In this document: piece after piece, positions 43,623 through 54,363 of the stretch | How the letters are laid out: every line of letters starts with the position of its first letter | Numbering within the stretch: position 1 is the stretch's first letter | NCBI GenBank assembly: GCA_951812745.1 | Contig: OX638327.1 | Coordinates: forward strand, 2,257,501-2,321,500 | DNA from: an uncultured Nitrospirales bacterium | GTDB taxonomy: Bacteria; Nitrospirota; Nitrospiria; Nitrospirales; UBA8639 | DNA: 64,000 nucleotides | Direction of reading: 5' to 3' | The notes under the pieces: generated by a model | What the model was told of the DNA's origin: nothing | Databases searched by the model: none | Seen by the model: only the letters and a program-made list of their open reading frames with translations | Made by a program: the position numbers and the translations under genes

Positions 43623-44627
43623 TTACGACATGTCGACTTTGACGGTGATGGCGTGAATCTCCATCACTTCGGTAGAGGAAGGTCGGGTGGTGAGCGTCTG
43701 CACCGCGTTGTGTGCATTGGTAGCTCGGACCATGAGCGTGTATTCCCCTGATTTCGGAATGCTCCATTCATACTTCCAGGGCGTCCATGTATACGGAGAT
43801 AGTTTGGGGAGGAGCGTACCCGGCTTCCACGTCTTTCCTGCGTCCGTACTCACTTCGATGCGTTGAATGGCGGTCCTTCCGTTAAAGGCGATGCCGTTGA
43901 TTGTGTAACGCGGCGTCGTGATGAGTTCCCTGTCGCCTGGCACGTCAATGCGTGAGGACAGTTTCACCAACGCGGTATCCGACCAGCTTTGTTGTTGCCA
44001 ATACCCTTTATAGTCGTGAGGCACAAGTTCCAGGCCGGTCAGCCATTTGACGTTCTTCATGCCGTAGATGCCCGGCACGATCACCCGGGCGGGATACCCG
44101 TGATCGGGCGGCAGGGGCACGCCGTTCATCTTCACGGCGAGCAGGACGTCCTCTTCAAGGGCCCGGGAGAGGGGGAAGCTGTCGGAATAGTCGTCCGCTC
44201 CACGAAGCACCAGGTCAAACGCCGTGGGGTCGAATCCGGCTTCGTCGAGCAGGTGATTCAGTTTCACGCCCTCCCACTCCGCCGTGCCGATTGAATAACC
44301 GCCGACCGTATTGCCGATACATTCCAGCGTGGCAATCATTGTCGTTTGCGGGCGTTTCAACAGATCCGCGAAAGACCAGGAGGCCGGCTGTTTGACCATT
44401 CCGCCGACCTGTAACGACCATTGCTCCAGGTCGATCTCCGGCGTCAGGTCATAAGAGGTCACGTAAAAGTCTTCATTGGAGGTGATGGCCGGCGTTTCGC
44501 GGCCCTTGCCGCGAAACAAGCCGAACAACTGGGCGTGAACGAGAGAAGAGGGATGAAAGACAGCCAGCCCCAACGAGGCCAACAGACTTTTCCCGAACGT
44601 TCTTCTGGATATGAGGGACACGCGCAA
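43623..44627 (-). CDS. Tat-exported sulfite oxidase-family molybdoenzyme
   Basis: Encodes 334 residues. The Tat signal SRRTFGKSLLASLGLAVF at the N-terminus indicates folded export to the periplasm. The molybdopterin domain contains the Mo-ligand cysteine in TMIATLECIGNTVGG and the WEGVKLNHLLDEAG segment. An Ig-like dimerisation domain follows (RIEVSTDAGKTWKPGTLLP; YEWSIPKSGEYTLMVRATNA), as in sulfite oxidase and SorA, but not YedY. No heme domain is fused and no cytochrome gene is adjacent. Sulfite oxidation or another oxotransfer is possible. Confidence 0.88.
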   Translation of the reverse strand: MRVSLISRRTFGKSLLASLGLAVFHPSSLVHAQLFGLFRGKGRETPAITSNEDFYVTSYDLTPEIDLEQWSLQVGGMVKQPASWSFADLLKRPQTTMIATLECIGNTVGGYSIGTAEWEGVKLNHLLDEAGFDPTAFDLVLRGADDYSDSFPLSRALEEDVLLAVKMNGVPLPPDHGYPARVIVPGIYGMKNVKWLTGLELVPHDYKGYWQQQSWSDTALVKLSSRIDVPGDRELITTPRYTINGIAFNGRTAIQRIEVSTDAGKTWKPGTLLPKLSPYTWTPWKYEWSIPKSGEYTLMVRATNAHNAVQTLTTRPSSTEVMEIHAITVKVDMS

Positions 44628-44864
44628 CCCGCTTTCTGCTTACAGTATAGTTCTTTTTCCGGTGGAATTGAATCGCCTGTGGATAGTGCGCCAAGAATGG
44701 TGGTTTCATTGATTGCCGGATCGAATAGGGTATTGGCCTGTCAACGTGAATAGGCTATAAGTACACAGCGAACCATCGATTGGGAAGCACGTAAAGAAAT
44801 CGACTGCCCCCGCCGGTCGGCAAAGAACAGACCCCCCTTCAAGGTATGCCACTGAGAAACTGAC

Positions 44865-47800
44865 GTGCCCGGCCAATTATTCACCCACTACTTCCTCGCC
44901 GACGGCATAAAGGCCACAGCCGAGTGGAAAACCTCTCTCGACAAGCCTGAAGCGTTTACCACGTTCAAAGACGGCGTGCGTCAGAAGTACGAGGCCCTCA
45001 GCCTTTCCGCAGACCCCAACGAAGCCGCCACCGAGCAGGACTTGATTCGTCCCGTCTTGGATCTGCTTGGATGGTCCGATTACCTCCCACAGCAAGGCTC
45101 GACCCGTAACGAAGACATTCCCGATCACCTGCTTTTTGCCGACGCTGGCGACAAGCGGCGTGCTGCCGCAAAAAAGAAGCCCAGCGGTCGCTACCGGGAC
45201 GCGTTGGTGGTGCAGGAAAGCAAGCGCTTCGGCCTCGCTTTGGATGCCCATGATAAGGACGACAAGGTCATAGTCGGCACGCCACATGGGCAGATCCTCA
45301 GGTATCTCTCGACCGCCGAGACCGCTTCGGATGGCAGCATTCGCTGGGGCATCCTGACTAACGGCGGCGTGTGGCGTCTCTACGATTACCATGCTCGGCC
45401 CCGCGCTAGTGGTTACTTTGAAGCCGATCTGGCGGAACTGCTCGAACCAGGCAACGAAGACGGCCTCCGGGTCTTCCACCTGCTGTTCCAGCGTGAGTCC
45501 TTTATTCTTCAGAAGGGCGCCACGACCACGTTTCTGGAAGCCGCTCTCGTAGAGGGTCGTCGGTATGAGGAGCGTGTCGCGCAGGATCTTTCGGGTGTGG
45601 TGTTCGAGCGTGTCTTCCCCAACCTGGTGCAGGCAGTTGCGGACGCCACAAGCGAGAGTCTCGTAAAAATCCGGGAGGCCGCCCTCATTTTCCTCTACCG
45701 GCTGCTTTTCGTGCTGTACGCCGAAGATAGAGGACTCCTGCCGGTCAACGACTCACGGTACGACGACTACGGCCTGCGAAAGCGAGTGCGGGACGACATC
45801 GCACGCAGGATGGCCGACAAAGACACCTTCTCGGCCCATGCCACCAGCTACTACGACCACCTGATGTCGCTCTTCAGGCTCATCGACAAGGGCGACCCGT
45901 CTATCGGCCTGCCGCCCTACAACGGGGGGCTGTTCGCAGCCGCGACGTTGCTGGAAGAAGCCCGCCTGTCTGACGAAACGATCGCTCCCATCATCTACGA
46001 TCTGAGCCACACCACGGCTGGCGAGCGACGCTTCGTCAACTACCGCGACATGTCGGTGCAGCAACTCGGCTCGATCTACGAACGCCTCCTTGAACACGAG
46101 CCGGTCCGCGATAACGACGGTACAATCGTCATTCGTCCCAATCCTTACGCCCGCAAGGACAGCGGCAGCTTCTTCACGCCCCAGGAACTCGTCGATCTGA
46201 TCGTCGAGCGGACGTTGAAACCACTGGCCGAAGAGCGTCTCAAGGCGTTTGAAGACAAAGCCGCCGAACTCAAGAGCCAACGCCGGCCAAAGACCCAACG
46301 GAAAGCCGAATTGCTCAAGCTGGACCCGGCCGAGGCGGTCTTGAATCTGAAGGTCCTGGACCCGGCCATGGGAAGCGGCCATTTCCTGGTCACCGCCGTG
46401 GATTTCCTATCCGATTACGTCGCCGAACTGATCGAGTATGTTCCGGCCGTACCGCAGTGGCGCGACGCCGACTATGCTTCGCCACTCGTGAAGCGTGTGG
46501 CCACGATTCGCAAAGAGATCCTTCAACGAGCCCAAGAAGCTAAATGGGTCATGGACGAGTCCCAGCTTACCGATCAGGCCATCATCCGACGCATGGTGCT
46601 CAAGCGTTGCATCTACGGAGTCGACAAGAATCCTCTGACCGTCGAACTGGCCAAGGTGTCCCTGTGGCTGCACAGCTTTACCGTAGGCGCGCCGTTGTCC
46701 TTTCTCGACCACCACCTCCGCCACGGCGACTCGCTGGTCGGATTGCGGGTGGGAGACGCCACCGATGAGTTGCACCGGCTCGGTGGGATGTTTGCCAGCA
46801 GCGCCATAGCGGGAGCGGAAGCCGCTACGGCAGGTATGCAGAGCATCGAGGAAATGTCGGATGCCGACGTGGCCGAAGTGCGCAAGTCGGCAGCACTGTT
46901 TCACGGAGTGGAGAAGAAGACAGCGGAACTCCGCGGGTTATTGAATGCCCTCTGCGGCCTGCGCTGGTTTACTGCAGGCATGAAGCAGAAAGATCGCGCT
47001 GAATTTGAGAGGCCGCTGGTCCGGATGCTCGCCCTGCAACCTGCGGACGCCTACAAGCTACTGGCTCGAGGGCCGGAGCCCAAAGGCGACGTTCCGCCCA
47101 ATTGCGATGCCATTGCTTGGTCGGAGTTTGTCGAATTGTGGCGGAAAACCGTATCCATTGCCGGCTGGGAAGGTTTCCTGCACTGGGAAGTGGCTTTTCC
47201 GGGGATATGGCGCGATTGGCAAAGCACCAGCCCGCAAGGCGGGTTTGATGCCGTGATCGGCAACCCGCCGTGGGACCGCATCAAGCTGCAAGAGGTGGAA
47301 TGGTTCGCCACCCGCAACCCCGAGCTTGCCCTTGCTCCGACAGCAGCCACGCGACAAAAAGGCATTCAACGGCTACGCAAACAGGGATCGCCCCTCGCAG
47401 CCGAGTTTGATGACGCCAAGAGTCGCGCGGAGCGACTTGGGGAAGTCATTCGTGCATCCAGCCACTACCCTTTGCTCAGCGGCGGCGACATCAACCTCTA
47501 CTCGCTGTTCGTCGAACGGGCGATGAGCTTGATCAAGTCCAACGGGTTCGTAGGTCTGCTGATCCCGTCGGGCATTTATGCGGACAAGACCGCTGCCCGC
47601 TTCTTCAAGTCCGTTTCCACAAGCGGACGGGTGGGCGGCCTGTTCGATTTCGAGAATAAGAAGATATTCTTCAAGGACGTTCATGCATCCTTCAAATTCT
47701 GCGCCCTCATTTTCGGTGGTGCGGAGCGCCGGTTCGATGAAACCAAGTGCGCCTTCTTTCTGCACGACACGAAATCGATTCATGACGAGGAACGCTGCTT

Positions 47801-48887
47801 TCCATTGACGCCTGAGGATTTCACCCGTGTGAATCCTAACACCGGCACCGCGCCTATTTTCCGCACCCGCCGTGATGCCGAGATTACCCGCCGCATCTAC
47901 GAACGGCACCCGGTGCTGGTGGACCGTGTAAGAGGTGAGGAGCGCAAGGCGTGGCCGGTGAAGTACACGACGATGTTTCACATGGCCAACGACTCCCACC
48001 TTTTCCGCACCGTCGAGCAACTCAAAGCGGAAGGCTTCTATCCCGTCGAAGGCAACCGCTGGAAGAAGGGGAAGGATCTATACTTGCCACTGTACGAAGG
48101 CAAGATGGTGCAGGCCTTCGACCATCGCGCCGCCAGCATCACCAATCGTGAGGGCAACCTGTTTCGCCCAGGGCAGCCCGACAGAACCCTTGACGAAGAA
48201 TACCGTGATCAAGCTTTCTCGCCTCGTCCTCGTTATTGGGTCAGCCAGCAGGACAGTGCCGTTATCAAGAAATTCGATTGGTTTTTGGCCTTCAAAGACA
48301 TTACGGCGTCAACCAACGTCCGTACCATGATTGCCGCTGCCATTCCTCGGGTTGGGTGTGGACACACGCTGCCGGTCCTTCTTCCATCCGAAGACCGATT
48401 CAATGTTGTAAGCGCAGCCTGTCTTCTTGCCAATCTCAATAGCTTCGGGTTCGATTACGTTGCTCGTCAGAAAGTTCAAGCCACCCACCTCACGTGGTTC
48501 GTTGTTGAGCAACTCCCCGTCATTACGCTGGCCGAATACGACCGCCCATTTGGCGGGACGACTGCCCGAGACCTCGTCCGCGACCATGTGCTTCGTCTCA
48601 CCTATACCGCCCACGATATGGCCCCCTTCGCCCGTGACCTCGGCTACGACGGCCCGCCCTTTGCTTGGAACGAAGAAGAACGCCGCCACCTGCGCGCCCG
48701 CCTCGACGCGCTCTACTTCCACCTCTACGGTCTCACGAAGGAAGACGCGGAATACGTGCTAGACACCTTCCCCATCGTCCGCAAGGAAGACGAAGCCGCC
48801 TTCGGCCACTACCGCACCCGCGCCCTCATCCTCGCCTACATGAACGCCCTCTCCGCCGGCGACACGGAGACAGTGGTGGCCGTTTAG
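44865..48887 (+). CDS. Single-chain type IIG restriction-modification enzyme (Eco57I-like)
   Basis: Encodes 1340 residues. The N-terminal nuclease-like region (TEQDLIRPVLDLLGWSDYLPQQG; YRDALVVQESKRFGLALD, an E-x-K core) is followed by helical parts. An adenine methyltransferase domain comes next, with motif I VLDPAMGSGHFLVTA near residue 497 and motif IV VIGNPPWD near 800. The target-recognition region forms the C-terminal third. Such enzymes cut and methylate through one polypeptide, with specificity fixed by the recognition domain. The start is GTG 44865. Its last ~65 codons are duplicated at 49672-49870, beyond the Mrr-like gene. Confidence 0.88.
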   Translation: MPGQLFTHYFLADGIKATAEWKTSLDKPEAFTTFKDGVRQKYEALSLSADPNEAATEQDLIRPVLDLLGWSDYLPQQGSTRNEDIPDHLLFADAGDKRRAAAKKKPSGRYRDALVVQESKRFGLALDAHDKDDKVIVGTPHGQILRYLSTAETASDGSIRWGILTNGGVWRLYDYHARPRASGYFEADLAELLEPGNEDGLRVFHLLFQRESFILQKGATTTFLEAALVEGRRYEERVAQDLSGVVFERVFPNLVQAVADATSESLVKIREAALIFLYRLLFVLYAEDRGLLPVNDSRYDDYGLRKRVRDDIARRMADKDTFSAHATSYYDHLMSLFRLIDKGDPSIGLPPYNGGLFAAATLLEEARLSDETIAPIIYDLSHTTAGERRFVNYRDMSVQQLGSIYERLLEHEPVRDNDGTIVIRPNPYARKDSGSFFTPQELVDLIVERTLKPLAEERLKAFEDKAAELKSQRRPKTQRKAELLKLDPAEAVLNLKVLDPAMGSGHFLVTAVDFLSDYVAELIEYVPAVPQWRDADYASPLVKRVATIRKEILQRAQEAKWVMDESQLTDQAIIRRMVLKRCIYGVDKNPLTVELAKVSLWLHSFTVGAPLSFLDHHLRHGDSLVGLRVGDATDELHRLGGMFASSAIAGAEAATAGMQSIEEMSDADVAEVRKSAALFHGVEKKTAELRGLLNALCGLRWFTAGMKQKDRAEFERPLVRMLALQPADAYKLLARGPEPKGDVPPNCDAIAWSEFVELWRKTVSIAGWEGFLHWEVAFPGIWRDWQSTSPQGGFDAVIGNPPWDRIKLQEVEWFATRNPELALAPTAATRQKGIQRLRKQGSPLAAEFDDAKSRAERLGEVIRASSHYPLLSGGDINLYSLFVERAMSLIKSNGFVGLLIPSGIYADKTAARFFKSVSTSGRVGGLFDFENKKIFFKDVHASFKFCALIFGGAERRFDETKCAFFLHDTKSIHDEERCFPLTPEDFTRVNPNTGTAPIFRTRRDAEITRRIYERHPVLVDRVRGEERKAWPVKYTTMFHMANDSHLFRTVEQLKAEGFYPVEGNRWKKGKDLYLPLYEGKMVQAFDHRAASITNREGNLFRPGQPDRTLDEEYRDQAFSPRPRYWVSQQDSAVIKKFDWFLAFKDITASTNVRTMIAAAIPRVGCGHTLPVLLPSEDRFNVVSAACLLANLNSFGFDYVARQKVQATHLTWFVVEQLPVITLAEYDRPFGGTTARDLVRDHVLRLTYTAHDMAPFARDLGYDGPPFAWNEEERRHLRARLDALYFHLYGLTKEDAEYVLDTFPIVRKEDEAAFGHYRTRALILAYMNALSAGDTETVVAV

Positions 48888-49101
48888 GAAGGGTAATGAA
48901 AGTTGTTTCTGGCCCCATATTCGACAAGCCCATTGGTTCGCATGCAACTCTAGGGCCGTAACATGCACGCAACTCCGTAAGTGTATGCTTTTGGTGTTTT
49001 TGAATGAAGGTAGTGTCCGTGGCGAATGTGCTTGAAATGCTGCTATCAAGCAGAATTGTTTGTCCATCGATGCTAAGATCGAAAGGATGGAGACGTTTCC
49101 C

Positions 49102-49665
49102 ATGATTGAGAATGTCCAACCCGTTGACATCACGCCGGAACAATTTGAGCACCAAGTCTGCGACTGGCTCAAGGCATCTGTAGACGGGCTAAAAAATTTC
49201 ACAATCACACACTCGTCGACGCTTGAGGGCGACAGCGGTGAATATGAAATCGACATGATAGCCGAGTTTGAGATTTTCGATGGGGCATTAATCAAGGTGC
49301 TGGTCGAATGCAAACGGTACAAGAACCCGGTTAAACGTGATGTAATTTTGATTCTCGAATCAAAGATTCGGGATAGCGATACCCATAAAGGAATGGTGTT
49401 TTCCACTTCGGGATTTCAAAAGGGGGCAATTGAGTATGCACAACAGCGCGGAATTGCGACGGTTACTGTACAGCATGGACACACAAACTATTTCACTAGG
49501 GCAGCGGGCACGAGGCCCGCTGCACCGCCACCGTGGGTGAAATTGTCCAAATATATTGGTTGGTTCATAACGCTAACGGATGAAGGCAATGAGTCACGTA
49601 CCTTAATTGACGACGATCGCAAAGATCCTTTAATTGAATGGTTCAACTCGGAAATGCCTACATAA
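49102..49665 (+). CDS. Mrr-like restriction endonuclease
   Basis: Encodes 187 residues from ATG 49102, chosen because GGAGA lies eight bases upstream; the frame is open from 49060. The Mrr-type catalytic core is seen: EYEIDMIAEFEIFDGALIKVLVECKRYKNPVKRD has D and E-x-K. A second conserved strand is KGMVFSTSGFQKGAIEYAQQRGIATVTV. It probably cuts modified or foreign DNA. The gene sits precisely between two copies of the IIG enzyme 3' end, and its composition is more AT-rich than the flanks. Confidence 0.82.
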   Translation: MIENVQPVDITPEQFEHQVCDWLKASVDGLKNFTITHSSTLEGDSGEYEIDMIAEFEIFDGALIKVLVECKRYKNPVKRDVILILESKIRDSDTHKGMVFSTSGFQKGAIEYAQQRGIATVTVQHGHTNYFTRAAGTRPAAPPPWVKLSKYIGWFITLTDEGNESRTLIDDDRKDPLIEWFNSEMPT

Positions 49666-49671
49666 CATTCA

Positions 49672-49870
49672 TCTGCGCGCTGGCCTCGACGCGCTCTACT
49701 TCCACCTCTACGGCCTGACCAAGGAAGACGCGGAGTACGTGCTGGACACCTTTCCCATCGTCCGCAAGGAAGACCAAGCCGTCTTCGGCCGCTACCGCAC
49801 CCGCGACCTCATCCTCGCCTATATGAACGCCCTCTCCGCCGGAGACACGGAGACAAAAGTGGTAATTTAG
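49672..49870 (+). pseudogene. Duplicated 3' end of the type IIG gene
   Basis: The frame reads LRAGLDALYFHLYGLTKEDA and onward to the stop, matching the last ~65 residues of the 1340-residue enzyme with few changes (R to G, E to Q, H to R, A to D, and the final residues). It has no start of its own. With 48690-48887 it brackets the Mrr-like gene as a direct repeat of about 200 bases. Confidence 0.85.
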
Positions 49871-49952
49871 GTAATTATTAGGCTGCCATTGCGTTTCAGG
49901 TGAAAAGAGGGCACTTGATGAACATTAAAATTAATGAGATTCTATCTGATAT

Positions 49953-51803
49953 ATGAAACTGATTAGGTTCCGAATCCAACACTATAAGTCAATCACAGAT
50001 TCCGGCTGGTGCTGGCTTGCCTCTGATGTTACGACCCTTGCGGGAAAAAACGAATCAGGGAAAAGCGCAATTCTTGAAGCGTTGCGGGATTTCCAGAATG
50101 AGGTTCAGTCCATACCTGATGGCGCAATACCCATTGATGATAGTGGCGAGCCAATGCTTGAGATGTGCTTTGAAGTCGAAAAGTCAATTCTGGATGAGAT
50201 CGCCGAAGAAACAGGCATTACGCTTGCCGATGAAACACGAAAATACATGTCGAAAAATGGCGTAACCATTATCAAACATCACGAGGGCAGATACGATTTG
50301 GATGAACAAATTGGTAGCCTTCTCAATGAGGCAAGAAATGAAGCAAACGCAACGAGAAAAAATCAAATTCAACACATCATTGGCTATCTATCAAACTTTG
50401 ACCATTTTTCAACATTTGAAACCCCCGAGTTAGAAGGTGATATAGCAACCATTCGAGACAACGTTCGTCTTTACCTCCAAGGTGCACACGCCCATGCTGC
50501 TTCAATAACCGATGAAGGAGTAAGGCAAAATGCGCAGACTGCATTAAATACATTGGAAACAGAAAATGATGCTTTGGACAATGAAGATGCTGCCAGCAAA
50601 TTTGCGGCTGCTCTGATAGACCGGACACCTTATTTTATTTTCTTCAGTGATTTTTCAGATATTCTGCCGTTCGAAATCCCATTCTCGGAAGCAAAAAACC
50701 ACAAAACCGTCCAAGATTTTGCGAAGCTCGCGGGTCTTGATTTGGACGAGGTTATTAGCGCAACTGATTCCCAGCGGCGCAGAAATATATTGAGTAGATA
50801 TTCTGCAAATATTAGTGGTGATTTTAAGGGCCATTGGAAACAAGACGAGCTTGACCTTGTTGCTGAAGCAGACGGAGAAAATCTGCGTCTGGGCGTTAGA
50901 AAATCCGGTGGCACTTTGTTGTTTAAGGCAGAACAACGCAGTAAAGGATTTCAGTGGTTCCTTTCCTTTTATCTGCGACTCAATGCCGAGCAAGCCGAAA
51001 CAAATGTGATTTTGATCGATGAACCTGGACTGTACCTGCACTCAAAGGCACAGAAAGATGTATTGAAAGTGTTCGAAACCCTTTCAGAGGAATCTCAAGT
51101 TGTCATTAGCACGCATTCGCCATATTTGATCGATGCTCAACGATTGGACAGGGTTCGTTTGATTTTGAAGGATGATCAGAAGGGAACGAGGATCGAAAAC
51201 AAAATTCATAAAGACGCGGATGCAGAAACGCTCACTCCAATTATTACAGCCATTGGCCTTGATCTAGCACACGACTTCTCGATTGCAGGGAAGAAAAATG
51301 TTTTGTTAGAAGGTATTTCCGATTATTACTTCATGCAGGCGTTGCGAGAGCACACGAAAGGAAACAAAGCCAATTTTATTCCCTGCGTGGGAGCACAGAA
51401 AATCCCTCAACTTGTCTCTTTACTCATTGGGTGGGATTTAGAGTTTTTGGCGGTTTTAGATAATGATTCTGAAGGGAAGAGGATAGCCAAGGAACTTAGT
51501 GAAAAGTTATCGATTGAACAAGATCGTATTATCTTTATTTCAGAAAAAAATGGTTTTGCTGTTGAAGACTTGTTCACACATGAGGATTTTAACAATTATG
51601 TGCTTGAGGAACCCATACATGAGGATGCTGCCACGTCAAATTCAAAATTCCTGAAAGAAAATAGATTGGACAAGGTCTTACTGGCGAAGACATTTTTCGA
51701 GAAGATGAAGGGTGACAAATCAAATATCAAGTTGTCGGAAGAGACAAGTGAGGCCTTTAAAAAGGTATTCGATAAGATTAACACAGGGTTTAGGAGCGCC
51801 TGA
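49953..51803 (+). CDS. OLD-family nuclease (ATPase plus Toprim)
   Basis: Encodes 616 residues. The ABC-type ATPase has Walker A GKNESGKS at 31-38 and Walker B NVILIDEPGLYLHSKAQ near 350, with switch histidine VISTHSPYLID. It is followed by a Toprim domain: KKNVLLEGISDYYF near 447 supplies the conserved glutamate and LAVLDNDSEGKR the DxD-type metal ligands. OLD enzymes act in phage exclusion, often with a partner such as GajB; no helicase partner gene is adjacent. The gene is markedly AT-rich compared with its surroundings, indicating recent transfer. Confidence 0.88.
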   Translation: MKLIRFRIQHYKSITDSGWCWLASDVTTLAGKNESGKSAILEALRDFQNEVQSIPDGAIPIDDSGEPMLEMCFEVEKSILDEIAEETGITLADETRKYMSKNGVTIIKHHEGRYDLDEQIGSLLNEARNEANATRKNQIQHIIGYLSNFDHFSTFETPELEGDIATIRDNVRLYLQGAHAHAASITDEGVRQNAQTALNTLETENDALDNEDAASKFAAALIDRTPYFIFFSDFSDILPFEIPFSEAKNHKTVQDFAKLAGLDLDEVISATDSQRRRNILSRYSANISGDFKGHWKQDELDLVAEADGENLRLGVRKSGGTLLFKAEQRSKGFQWFLSFYLRLNAEQAETNVILIDEPGLYLHSKAQKDVLKVFETLSEESQVVISTHSPYLIDAQRLDRVRLILKDDQKGTRIENKIHKDADAETLTPIITAIGLDLAHDFSIAGKKNVLLEGISDYYFMQALREHTKGNKANFIPCVGAQKIPQLVSLLIGWDLEFLAVLDNDSEGKRIAKELSEKLSIEQDRIIFISEKNGFAVEDLFTHEDFNNYVLEEPIHEDAATSNSKFLKENRLDKVLLAKTFFEKMKGDKSNIKLSEETSEAFKKVFDKINTGFRSA

Positions 51804-51915
51804 TTTTTGAAAACCAGCTCTATCATCTTATTGGTTTTACACGCACTAGGGGTTTCCCAAAGTCGCGAAGGTGTTGTCATGAAGCATCAGCATGAAGAAC
51901 CGCAAGGAGGTCCTC

Positions 51916-52113
51916 ATGAAGTACAAGATTGCCCTTCACCACTCTGACGAAGGTTACAGTGTATCGGTGCCTGGCTTGCCCGGATGTTGGTCCCAGGGCA
52001 AAACCGAAGCAGAGGCCCTCGCGAATATCGAAGCCGCCATCCGGGAATATTTCAGCGTCGTCGAAGACCTGTTAGGGGACGCCGAAGTCCGAGAAATCGA
52101 ACTGGCCGTCTAA
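51916..52113 (+). CDS. HicB-like antitoxin
   Basis: Encodes 65 residues, MKYKIALHHSDEGYSVSVPGLPGCWSQGKTEAEALANIEAAI..., the typical HicB N-terminal partial RNase H fold with the GCWSQG turn. AAGGAGG seven bases before ATG 51916 fixes the start. No hicA is found on either side, so this is a solitary antitoxin-type protein or a DUF1902-like relative. Its stop overlaps the stop of the convergent Phd gene by four bases. Confidence 0.8.
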   Translation: MKYKIALHHSDEGYSVSVPGLPGCWSQGKTEAEALANIEAAIREYFSVVEDLLGDAEVREIELAV

Positions 52114-52400
52114 CCTTCTTCCCGCTCGCCTAAGACCGTCGAACGCACGGCCCCTTGCGGGTCTGCCGGACGCGGCAGGTTCCAGAAATCCGCCGGCAGG
52201 GACTGCTCTCCGCGTTTGAGCAAACCCTTTCTTTCCATTTCTTGCAAGTGTTCGGACATAGATACGTCATTTCTAATGGGCAGCAAGCGTGCAATGGGCC
52301 GGCCATGCTCGGTTATCAGGACTTCTTCACCTGTTTTGACTTGTCGCAGGTAAGAACTTAACGACATCTTGAGTTGTGAGATGGTTGCGGTCTTCTTCAT
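52110..52400 (-). CDS. Phd/YefM-type antitoxin, no toxin adjacent
   Basis: Encodes 96 residues. The N-terminal Phd fold ATISQLKMSLSSYLRQVKTGEEVLITEHGRPIARLLPI is intact, and the C-terminal half is variable (toxin-binding in the family). The gene that would normally follow, a PIN or Doc toxin downstream on the minus strand, is replaced by the HicB gene, which runs the other way. Confidence 0.82.
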   Translation of the reverse strand: MKKTATISQLKMSLSSYLRQVKTGEEVLITEHGRPIARLLPIRNDVSMSEHLQEMERKGLLKRGEQSLPADFWNLPRPADPQGAVRSTVLGEREEG

Positions 52401-52591
52401 GGAATGACCTGTCCGGCTAATATTGTCAGGCCACTGTAGTCATTGTCAGCCTTTCAAGCAAATGAGCATGAATTTGGTTGTTGGTCGGGCTAGCAAAGCC
52501 TGACTCCAAACTCTCTTTGGATTCGTGCCAATCACTTCCCTACAAAAAGTCGTGAATTAACGTCTTTTTGTCCAGCTTATTCACTTCTACT

Positions 52592-52625
52592 TTGTGTATT
52601 TTGGTGAATTTGTTACAATAAATCC
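52592..52625 (+). promoter_or_regulatory. Promoter of the Fic gene, possibly leaderless
   Basis: TTGTGT (52592-52597), 16-base spacer and TACAAT (52614-52619). The start codon at 52626 is only six bases after the -10 box, so transcription would start at or near the ATG. TTCAC and GTGAA half-sites surround the -35 region. Confidence 0.5.
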
Positions 52626-53498
52626 ATGGCAACCTCGAAACCGATGAAAAAGCGAATCCAGGTATTAAAGGAAGAATACGATGCATTGCGTCCGGGAAAG
52701 GAGTCGCTGTTGTCGATGATCGACGAGGTGGAAATACCTGAAAACGTCTACAATTCCAACGCTATCGAAAACTCGACACTCACTCTTGAGGAAACCGAGA
52801 AAATTCTGTTGGAGCAGAAGCTGTCACGGAACGTGTCGTTGCGGGAGGTGTTCGAAGCGAAAAATCTGGCACGGGTTATCGACTATAAACGCAAGAAAGT
52901 GAAGGAAAGTGAACTGGGCAAGGACCTGATCGTCCTATTTCACCAGATGCTTATCGGAGGCATAGATGATGCAATCGCTGGTCGCTTTCGTAGAAAGGGA
53001 GAGTATGTGCGGGTAGGTGCGTATATCGCACCTGCGCCTGAGCTCGTGGAGCGCATGATCGAGACCGCCCTGCTTGAATATTCCAGTGATCTCGGTACGT
53101 ATTTTTTGGACAAGATTGCCAGGTTTCATCTGGATTTCGAGACCATCCATCCCTTTTGCGACGGCAATGGCCGCATAGGGCGTGTCATCATCAATTTTCA
53201 ATTGCTCCAACTTGGCCTGCCGCGCATTATCATTCGCAACAAGGAAAAGGACGTCTACTATCGAGCGTTCAGCGATTATCGGGCAAAGAAAACGACAAAG
53301 ACGATGGAAGGCATCTTGTCGCTGGCTCTCGTCGAGTCGCTGCACAAGCGGCTGAGCTATCTGAGAGGTGAGGAGATCATCAGGCTGTCGGATTATATCA
53401 AGCAGAACGGGCTTTCGGCGCCGGCTGTGACCAACGCTGCCCGCCGCCAGACCATTCCTGCCTTCCGCGAAAAGGGAGTGTGGAAGATCGGACTGTGA
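52626..53498 (+). CDS. Fic-domain protein (predicted AMPylase)
   Basis: Encodes 290 residues. The catalytic motif HPFCDGNGRIGR starts at H175. An inhibitory helix motif S-x3-E-N is at S44-N49, so this is a class II (N-terminally autoinhibited) Fic protein. The C-terminus carries a short winged-helix-like segment (LSDYIKQNGLSAPAVTNAARRQTIPAFREKGVWKIG). Fic proteins transfer AMP (or other groups) to hydroxyls of target proteins. Because the inhibitory motif is built in, no separate antitoxin is needed. Confidence 0.9.
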   Translation: MATSKPMKKRIQVLKEEYDALRPGKESLLSMIDEVEIPENVYNSNAIENSTLTLEETEKILLEQKLSRNVSLREVFEAKNLARVIDYKRKKVKESELGKDLIVLFHQMLIGGIDDAIAGRFRRKGEYVRVGAYIAPAPELVERMIETALLEYSSDLGTYFLDKIARFHLDFETIHPFCDGNGRIGRVIINFQLLQLGLPRIIIRNKEKDVYYRAFSDYRAKKTTKTMEGILSLALVESLHKRLSYLRGEEIIRLSDYIKQNGLSAPAVTNAARRQTIPAFREKGVWKIGL

Positions 53499-53520
53499 GT
53501 GACTTGTAAAAGTTTAAAAT

Positions 53521-53528
53521 TTTTAATA
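53521..53528. repeat. Target site duplication TTTTAATA (left)
   Basis: Eight-base direct repeat adjoining the left end of the IS1595 element; the partner is at 54364-54371. Confidence 0.85.
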
Positions 53529-54363
53529 GGTAATTAGGGCGAAACGTAACCAAAATAGATCTTGAGAAACTGTTTGAAGACATTCTCCTGTCGGTGATTA
53601 AAGCGATACTCCACTTCTTTCAAATACATCGGGAAATGATACTTGGAGACCCCGCGATACTGATACAAGATATGTTTGGCATAACTCCAAAAGCCTTCAA
53701 TGCCATTAATGTGATTCTTCGTCCGCCGGCTCACCAAGGTTTTCGCATGATTCACCGTATGATGGTGGCCATAGCGTTTTAGCGATTGATACCCCCGAAA
53801 GGCATCGGTGAAATAGACCGAGCCTTTCCGGGTGTGCGCCTGAATATGGTGCAACAATTCTTCCGCACTAACGGACTCGACGACTTTCGTGTATACGCGC
53901 CCTTCCCGCTCCAGGAGCCCGAACACGACACTTTTGCCGGCGGTGGCCCGGCCGCGTTGGCCTTTGCGCCGGCCGCCGAAATAGGCCTCATCCAGTTCGA
54001 TCTCGCCTTTCAGTTTCCCCGCTTCCAACTCGGTGACATGATACAACGCTTCCCGTATGCGGTGATAGACGCGAGTGACGACTTTCACGTCCAGGCCCAG
54101 ATCCTGGCTCAACCGATAGGCGGGTTGCAATTGATAGAAGCCTTGCAGGATCCGGATCTCGCGGCGCAGCCGCCGGAGGCTCTTGTTTTTGCCACAGCGC
54201 CCACATTTCACGTAGCCGCGGCGGGTGTGCAGGACCTGAAAGGAGCCGCAGAAAATGCACTTGCGACCGCGCAAAAAGTTGGCCGCACAACTAAAAACCG
54301 TATGTCGTCCTGTAACCATGCTGGTTTTCTACCATACATTGGTTACGAAACGCCCTAATTACC
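53529..54363. mobile_element. IS1595-family insertion sequence, apparently complete
   Basis: The 835-bp element has terminal inverted repeats: GGTAATTAGGGCG, three unlike bases, CGTAACCAA at both ends, so about 22 of 25 positions match. It is bounded by an identical 8-bp TTTTAATA duplication, the usual target-site length for IS1595. It is inserted in an AT-rich intergenic stretch between the Fic gene and a Phd-VapC pair. Confidence 0.93.
53534..54319 (-). CDS. IS1595-family transposase (ISXO2-like)
   Basis: Encodes 261 residues. The N-terminal zinc ribbon (CIFCGSFQVLHTRRGYVKCGRCGKNKSLRR) is followed by a helix-turn-helix. The DDE/N catalytic domain follows: IELDEAYFGGRRKG gives the first Asp, VYFTDAFRGYQSLKRYGHHHTVNH the second, and TKNHINGIEGFWSYAKHILYQYRGVSKYHFPMYLKEVEYRFNHR the rest. 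It has no frameshift and fills the element almost end to end, so it is probably functional. Confidence 0.93.
   Translation of the reverse strand: MVTGRHTVFSCAANFLRGRKCIFCGSFQVLHTRRGYVKCGRCGKNKSLRRLRREIRILQGFYQLQPAYRLSQDLGLDVKVVTRVYHRIREALYHVTELEAGKLKGEIELDEAYFGGRRKGQRGRATAGKSVVFGLLEREGRVYTKVVESVSAEELLHHIQAHTRKGSVYFTDAFRGYQSLKRYGHHHTVNHAKTLVSRRTKNHINGIEGFWSYAKHILYQYRGVSKYHFPMYLKEVEYRFNHRQENVFKQFLKIYFGYVSP

Follow-up and report, generated by a model that had tools for sequence, protein, structure and literature searches.

The 3' end of a predicted type IIG restriction-modification gene brackets an Mrr-type nuclease gene and recurs as orphan copies in related genomes

Results

Organization of the locus

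The window, a stretch of 64,000 nucleotides from an uncultured Nitrospirales bacterium (contig OX638327.1), belongs to a genome assembled as one contig of 2.35 Mb (G000 in our numbering). When the range 44000-54000 was searched for repeats, a single direct-repeat family was returned, with copies at 48687-48888 and 49670-49871. Both are 202 nt long, have a spacing of 983 nt and align without gaps at 89.6% identity, with 21 differences. The first is the end of a restriction-modification gene and the second stands alone behind a nuclease gene; we call them tails. A search of the whole genome returned exactly these two copies (E 6e-102 and 2.5e-73), far beyond chance. The original prediction, that the 3' end of a IIG gene is repeated on both sides of an Mrr gene, is thus borne out, with coordinates right to within a few bases. 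The features of the locus are as follows.

43623..44627, minus strand: conserved gene at the flank of the hotspot (comparison with relatives)
44865..48887, plus strand: predicted type IIG restriction-modification enzyme, Eco57I family, 1340 aa (Pfam Eco57I, PADLOC)
48687..48888, plus strand: tail copy 1, the last 66 codons of the IIG gene and its stop codon (repeat, genome search)
48889..49059, plus strand: spacer between the IIG stop codon and the Mrr open reading frame (genus comparison)
49060..49665, plus strand: bracketed gene, predicted Mrr-type nuclease (Mrr_cat) of up to 201 aa (Pfam)
49670..49871, plus strand: tail copy 2, orphan, beginning 4 nt past the Mrr stop codon (repeat)
49953..51803, plus strand: AAA/OLD-like TOPRIM protein, after tail 2 (family models, comparison with G302)
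51892..52113, plus strand: HicB-like antitoxin of the same island (Pfam)
52626..53498, plus strand: Fic protein (Pfam), whose counterparts in G276 and G227 directly follow a tail or tail remnant

The protein encoded at 44865-48887 matches Pfam Eco57I (E 1.3e-19) and the PADLOC model REase_MTase_IIG (E 1e-73), and the PADLOC model of the DISARM methylase DrmMI scores higher on it (6.9e-88). Going by family models only, it is predicted to be a type IIG enzyme, that is, a methyltransferase and a nuclease in one long protein. Likewise, the open reading frame at 49060-49665 is predicted to encode an Mrr-type nuclease from its Mrr_cat catalytic domain (E 1.8e-13, 51 bits for a Pfam cut-off of 21). 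No solved structure related to the IIG or the Mrr protein was found (Mrr searched at E 0.01). The GC content, about 0.6 in the IIG gene, drops to about 0.46 in Mrr, goes up again around tail 2, and is 0.41-0.46 over most of the OLD-like gene and 0.37 at its end, so that a piece of a GC-rich gene sits between two AT-richer genes.

Two further observations concern the surroundings. An IS1595-type transposase gene (53534-54319) lies between the Fic gene and what we take to be a toxin-antitoxin pair. The conserved flank gene adjoins a gene that is presumably nuoN in several relatives: the two are about 0.1-1.9 kb apart in G200, G065, G302 and G386, and about 62.6 kb apart in G000 (C1:2238527-2301126; the window starts at 2257501), which is a large insertion or rearrangement.

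Tail and body across the genus

Fourteen genomes of the genus were compared, the relatives being mostly fragmented MAGs. The tail was found in 11 of them (17 matches, 12 of which lie in open frames shorter than 200 aa) and the body of the IIG gene in six. Five genomes have a tail without a body (G171, G185, G227, G386 and G065), and three have neither (G200, G242 and G340). The body in G276 extends past the end of its contig, so that the first tail is out of sight; the visible tail lies on another contig with a different neighbour ahead. A protein search with residues 1-1245, which short heads would escape, gave no further body fragment in the five body-less genomes; by DNA comparison, the first 97 bp or so of the gene were detected in G185 and G227.

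Outside the genus, tails were found in 12 of 369 genomes of the class around G419 and in 17 of 395 genomes of the phylum around G416, mostly in long frames. Frames shorter than 200 aa made up 1 of 14 matches in the class, 4 of 22 in the phylum and 1 of 7 in another search outside the genus, as against 12 of 17 in the genus, in counts for which the queries differed between searches and some short frames lay at contig ends. Since the outside tails are mostly attached to long frames, we set aside the idea of a wider phenomenon: orphan tails appear particular to this genus, as far as the sampling goes.

Comparing related strains for loci with one tail and no Mrr gene had been proposed together with the original prediction, and such an allele exists in G302 (L050). 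Its order is the conserved flank gene, the IIG gene in two frames, one tail, the OLD-like gene and HicB, with no Mrr. It is 86.5% identical to the window over 4.1 kb on the IIG side and 86.0% identical over 2.4 kb on the tail-OLD-HicB side. Mrr has no close relative in the other 13 genomes of the genus, in which one weak match of 27% identity occurs in G185 at another place; the spacer at 48889-49059 is unmatched in the same 13 genomes. Therefore no donor locus is seen among them. Within the IIG gene, the synonymous divergence from G302 drops to 0.15 and 0.02 in the part at 47865-48464 (about residues 1000-1200), versus about 0.3-0.5 elsewhere, which we read as a recent exchange of part of the gene, perhaps its target-recognition region.

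Other genes bracketed by the same tail, also proposed as a check, occur in three genomes. The order in G227 is tail, a gene for a 79-aa protein, genes for proteins of 563 aa and 110 aa, an SDH protease gene, tail, a Panacea-HTH gene, a gene for a 129-aa protein, a shortened tail and Fic. In G185 it is tail, 79-aa gene, TIR gene, SDH protease gene, a shortened tail and AAA plus DUF3226, and in G171 it is tail, a DUF2442 gene with a fragment of the SDH module, and tail.

Junctions of the tails

The orphan tails have a common right end, the stop codon, and their left ends differ. The left ends fall at about 48636 (behind a Type ISP gene), at 48649 (downstream of the SDH-type protease gene), at 48670 (G171), at 48680-48698 (G386 and G065) and at 48687 (behind Mrr), and those of shortened copies at 48791 and 48801; a 25-bp remnant in G065 starts at about 48862. 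About eight distinct left junctions are thus all inside the last 250 bp or so of a gene of 4023 bp. By simple arithmetic, which assumes random placement and independence, the first five of these junctions would all fall there by chance with a probability of about 1e-6.

The G171 tail follows, at a distance of about 15 bp, the sequence that lies upstream of the IIG gene. The tails of G386 and G065 are joined to a short upstream segment, one that G302 also has ahead of its IIG gene. In G185 and G227 the IIG gene is reduced to its first 97 bp or so and its last 250 bp or so, with a Type ISP enzyme gene in between; the G227 protein matches Pfam Type_ISP_C (E 4.4e-86), and the G185 gene was taken as Type ISP from the similarity of its start and length and from its 82.8% identical end. 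Remnants of the heads of other genes, an SDH protease and Fic, are also present. The scan for gene-end fragments was muddied by spurious overlapping frames and was used for these two heads only.

The short upstream segment of G386, G065 and G302 is presumably an hsdM head. Four genomes have it ahead of the IIG gene or of what is left of that gene (L050:8090-8172, L049:7060-7150, L047:9809-9892 and L042:7014-7097), and it reads like the scar of an earlier system. The 25-bp remnant in G065 (L047) is the end of another tail, about 130 bp past the tail and after the start of a 79-aa gene; it is a deletion that left only the last bases.

Divergence of the tails

Tails 1 and 2 of the window are no closer to each other than tails of different species are. 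In a tree of the tails, weakly supported and poorly resolved, the two do not pair, and no grouping by position is seen. A difference of this size agrees neither with an assembly duplication nor with a recent copying event at the locus; an assembly duplication, the artefact considered with the original prediction, is rejected in view of the 10% divergence and of the orphan tails of other genomes. In four pairs of genes, the synonymous divergence was lower in the attached tails than in the rest of the gene, with 0.234 versus 0.376, 0.281 versus 0.324, 0.147 versus 0.435 and 0.377 versus 0.581.

The orphan tails change as coding sequences do. Their frames are open and free of stops, and their dN/dS is 0.21, versus 0.23-0.31 in attached tails. 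Of the private changes of nine orphans, 23 are synonymous and 18 nonsynonymous (p 1.6e-5 against 0.246, without correction for mutation bias), and five pairs of orphans with the same left junction show a synonymous excess (p from 0.018 to 4e-6). A coding-like pattern is what would be expected if the orphan tail were kept as a useful small protein, a free C-terminal domain. However, four orphans (G171_1, G185_1, G386 and G227_2) have no in-frame start codon ahead of the tail, the only one ahead of tail 2 of the window is a TTG inside Mrr, and left-shortened copies exist, so that we consider this explanation very unlikely. Coding-like change in orphans that lack starts is better explained by renewal through recombination with functional copies than by selection on a peptide, and it could also mostly predate detachment. 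Moreover, two tails of G227 that lie behind different left neighbours have in common a 24-nt insertion found in no other copy. The coding-like change, the start-less orphans and this insertion are in keeping with tails that recombine repeatedly, both inside one genome and from genome to genome. On the opposite side, a PHI-type test on the 200-bp tail gave no recombination signal (p 0.95, 0.21 and 0.96).

A tail that serves as the site-specific attachment site of an integrase-mediated element would account for the common right end and the varying left ends of the orphans, and for the fact that 48813-48848 is the most synonymously conserved 12-codon window of the gene (pS 0.045 for a median of 0.487, five body copies). 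Yet this block has a pS of 0.000 in four attached tails and of 0.18-0.20 in the orphans, like their surroundings, so that no core is conserved in all copies. A search of the whole genome for tyrosine recombinases (Phage_integrase) placed none with the element: the only two such genes lie at 1.33 and 1.50 Mb, versus 2.31 Mb for the tail. The core has no exact match in viral contigs and only weak matches in phages and plasmids. Given the variable block in orphans and the distance of the recombinases, we prefer general homology to a specific site and hold an attachment site to be highly improbable. In the pair of outside enzymes L028 and L107, moreover, the block at 48813-48857 varies about as much as the remainder (pS 0.417 versus 0.509, only 12 synonymous sites). 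A sigma-70 promoter kept in the tail was dropped as well: a scan of 48600-49980 gave 0 sites, where 1.5 are expected by chance.

Exchange of neighbours at the tail

We compared the 500-bp flanks of 17 tail copies, leaving out the 25-bp remnant, in 129 cross-genome pairs. The left flank alone was common to 21 pairs, the right flank alone to 6, both to 1 and neither to 101; hence 27 of the 28 pairs with any common flank share one side only. Neighbours are thus exchanged on the left and on the right of the tail. Tail 2 of the window and the tail of G302 both have the OLD-like gene on their right, with Mrr on the left in the first and the IIG gene in the second. G386 and G065 have the same left neighbour and different right ones, with 95.5% identity left of the tail and 88.4% within it. 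G276 and the third tail of G227 both have Fic on the right and differ on the left.

Genes of the island and its surroundings were taken as controls, with VapC, NuoN, Def, SorA and HigA as presumed assignments; the gene named HigA has Pfam HTH_3 only and adjoins a HigB_toxin gene. Both flanks were shared in none of the pairs of Fic (10 pairs: 9 neither, 1 left only), HigA (10 pairs: 7 neither, 2 right only, 1 left only) and the SorA-like gene (15 pairs: 11 neither, 3 left only, 1 right only). The counts were 9 both, 11 right only and 7 too short for Panacea (one G171 copy being probably counted twice, from overlapping loci), 3 right only for OLD/AAA, 3 both for SDH, 21 both for Def, 10 both, 5 left only and 5 neither for VapC, and 4 both and 62 left only for nuoN. 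Since the control genes of the island are shuffled too, one-sided sharing of flanks is not special to the tail, and the tail is not the sole joint. The whole island is shuffled; what is special to the tail is that a remnant which is not a gene recurs at the borders.

Discussion

We think it probable that this locus is a defence hotspot that turns over by recombination and in which the 3' end of the IIG gene is retained as a recurrent patch of homology. The window would be one allele of this hotspot in a genus of Nitrospira-like (sponge-associated) bacteria, where defence genes may be gained, lost and replaced through recombination while the IIG 3' end would remain as a patch of about 200 bp bordering the exchanged segments. 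The segment made of Mrr and the orphan tail has the intact IIG gene, complete with a tail, on one side and the OLD-like gene on the other. It would most likely have arrived when the tail recombined, by homologous or homeologous pairing, with DNA of a related strain where Mrr already preceded a tail. The product would be the tail-Mrr-tail arrangement, which could loop out again via recombination between its tails. Two origins had been put forward for the second tail: either tails were exchanged in an insertion, or a second IIG gene lost its main body. The one-tail allele of G302 and the other bracketed genes in the genus make exchange the better idea. What the data show is the repeat, the one-tail allele, the orphan tails of the genus and the change of neighbours at the tail; recombination as the mechanism and a related strain as the donor are inferred, and the tail may drive the exchange.

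The other origin would make tail 2 the remnant of an old duplicate of the IIG gene, the body of which was deleted, with Mrr in the gap and a tail that does not promote exchange. Deletions that remove the body and leave the tail are plainly visible in G171, G386 and G065, and head remnants of the SDH protease and Fic genes occur as well. However, none of the 14 genomes holds two bodies, the body-less genomes have no internal body fragment whereas random deletions should leave every length, the left junctions are confined to the very end of the gene, and the tails do not group by position in the weakly supported tree. We therefore consider a deletion remnant unlikely. Body loss is the less likely of the two ideas as a general account, because no genome has two bodies and remnants start only within the last 250 bp or so of a 4-kb gene, though it could still apply to the window itself. 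The preferred recombination scenario may also be read in the other direction, with an ancestral tail-Mrr-tail arrangement from which G302 lost Mrr via recombination between the tails. The comparison between G000 and G302 alone gives no direction, and direct repeats of 200 bp favour looping out. On the other side, Mrr is absent from the 13 other genomes of the genus, bar the weak match in G185, and the one tail in G302 does not clearly look like a hybrid of tails 1 and 2. We thus hold the loss of Mrr in G302 to be rather doubtful and infer an insertion in the window.

Going one step beyond turnover by recombination, one could imagine the IIG tail as a self-perpetuating homology address, so that every defence gene with a tail at its end could recombine with all the other tails of the population. 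We put this forward tentatively, as a possibility we do not favour. If it were true, defence genes could be exchanged, stacked and excised like cassettes without an integrase, and orphan tails would persist through constant renewal by recombination.

Several known systems resemble this locus in part. Nobusato et al. reportedly described in 2000 the insertion of restriction-modification genes with long target duplication in Helicobacter pylori. Such insertions, with a long and variable target duplication, are mentioned for bacteria including Helicobacter in PMC3031569 and PMC4978471, the latter of which also mentions a restriction-modification cluster with a direct repeat at its flanks, possibly inserted in another such cluster. 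As in that system, a restriction-related gene lies here between long direct repeats, and the related genome G302 has the single-copy, uninterrupted site. Unlike in Helicobacter, the copies of the window share only 90% identity, the repeat consists of the 3' end of another restriction-modification gene, and orphans of this tail stand next to many different genes across the genus. The 89.6% identity of tails 1 and 2, no higher than that of tails from other genomes, would fit an old duplication of the local target as well as a foreign tail.

The immigration control region, from yjiA to yjiN, is described in PMC12707154 as a defence hotspot in which systems, Mrr included, are replaced; that paper names a mobilizing integrase for the neighbouring hotspot 37, unlike for the yjiA-yjiN region. 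The present locus is similar in its fixed chromosomal place, its changing defence genes including Mrr and its replacement of systems. It differs in that a remnant of a restriction gene recurs inside the island and marks several internal borders. Integrons and integrase-based cassette arrays likewise hold different genes bracketed by a repeated element. Unlike in integrons, there is no tyrosine recombinase at the window locus and no conserved site in the orphans, and the copies are diverged coding sequence. A literature search of titles and abstract openings, incomplete in coverage, found no description of restriction-gene tails that stand as orphans where cassettes meet.

Little is understood of the ways in which individual defence genes move into and out of islands when no integrase takes part. 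This locus lets the borders be followed to the base throughout a genus, from the intact gene to body-less scars, the replacement of one restriction-modification gene by another and Mrr between tails. That the tail recurs at the borders between exchanged defence genes suggests that gene ends held in common help the exchange. Should the tail really provide the homology, remnants of gene ends would offer defence genes a simple, general and testable path of turnover; should it be just a scar, the locus would still document clearly the decay and replacement of restriction genes. According to PMC5649159, restriction-modification genes are enriched in sponge symbionts. Finally, a recurring set of genes follows the first tail at L049:10933-14366, L041:9742-12288 and L051:4112-7106. 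It consists of the 79-aa protein (with a gene in G227 and G185), either a TIR protein or a 563-aa protein that matches no family, the 110-aa protein (G227 and G197) and a ClpP-like SDH protease. The set may be a candidate defence operon in which the effector can be exchanged.
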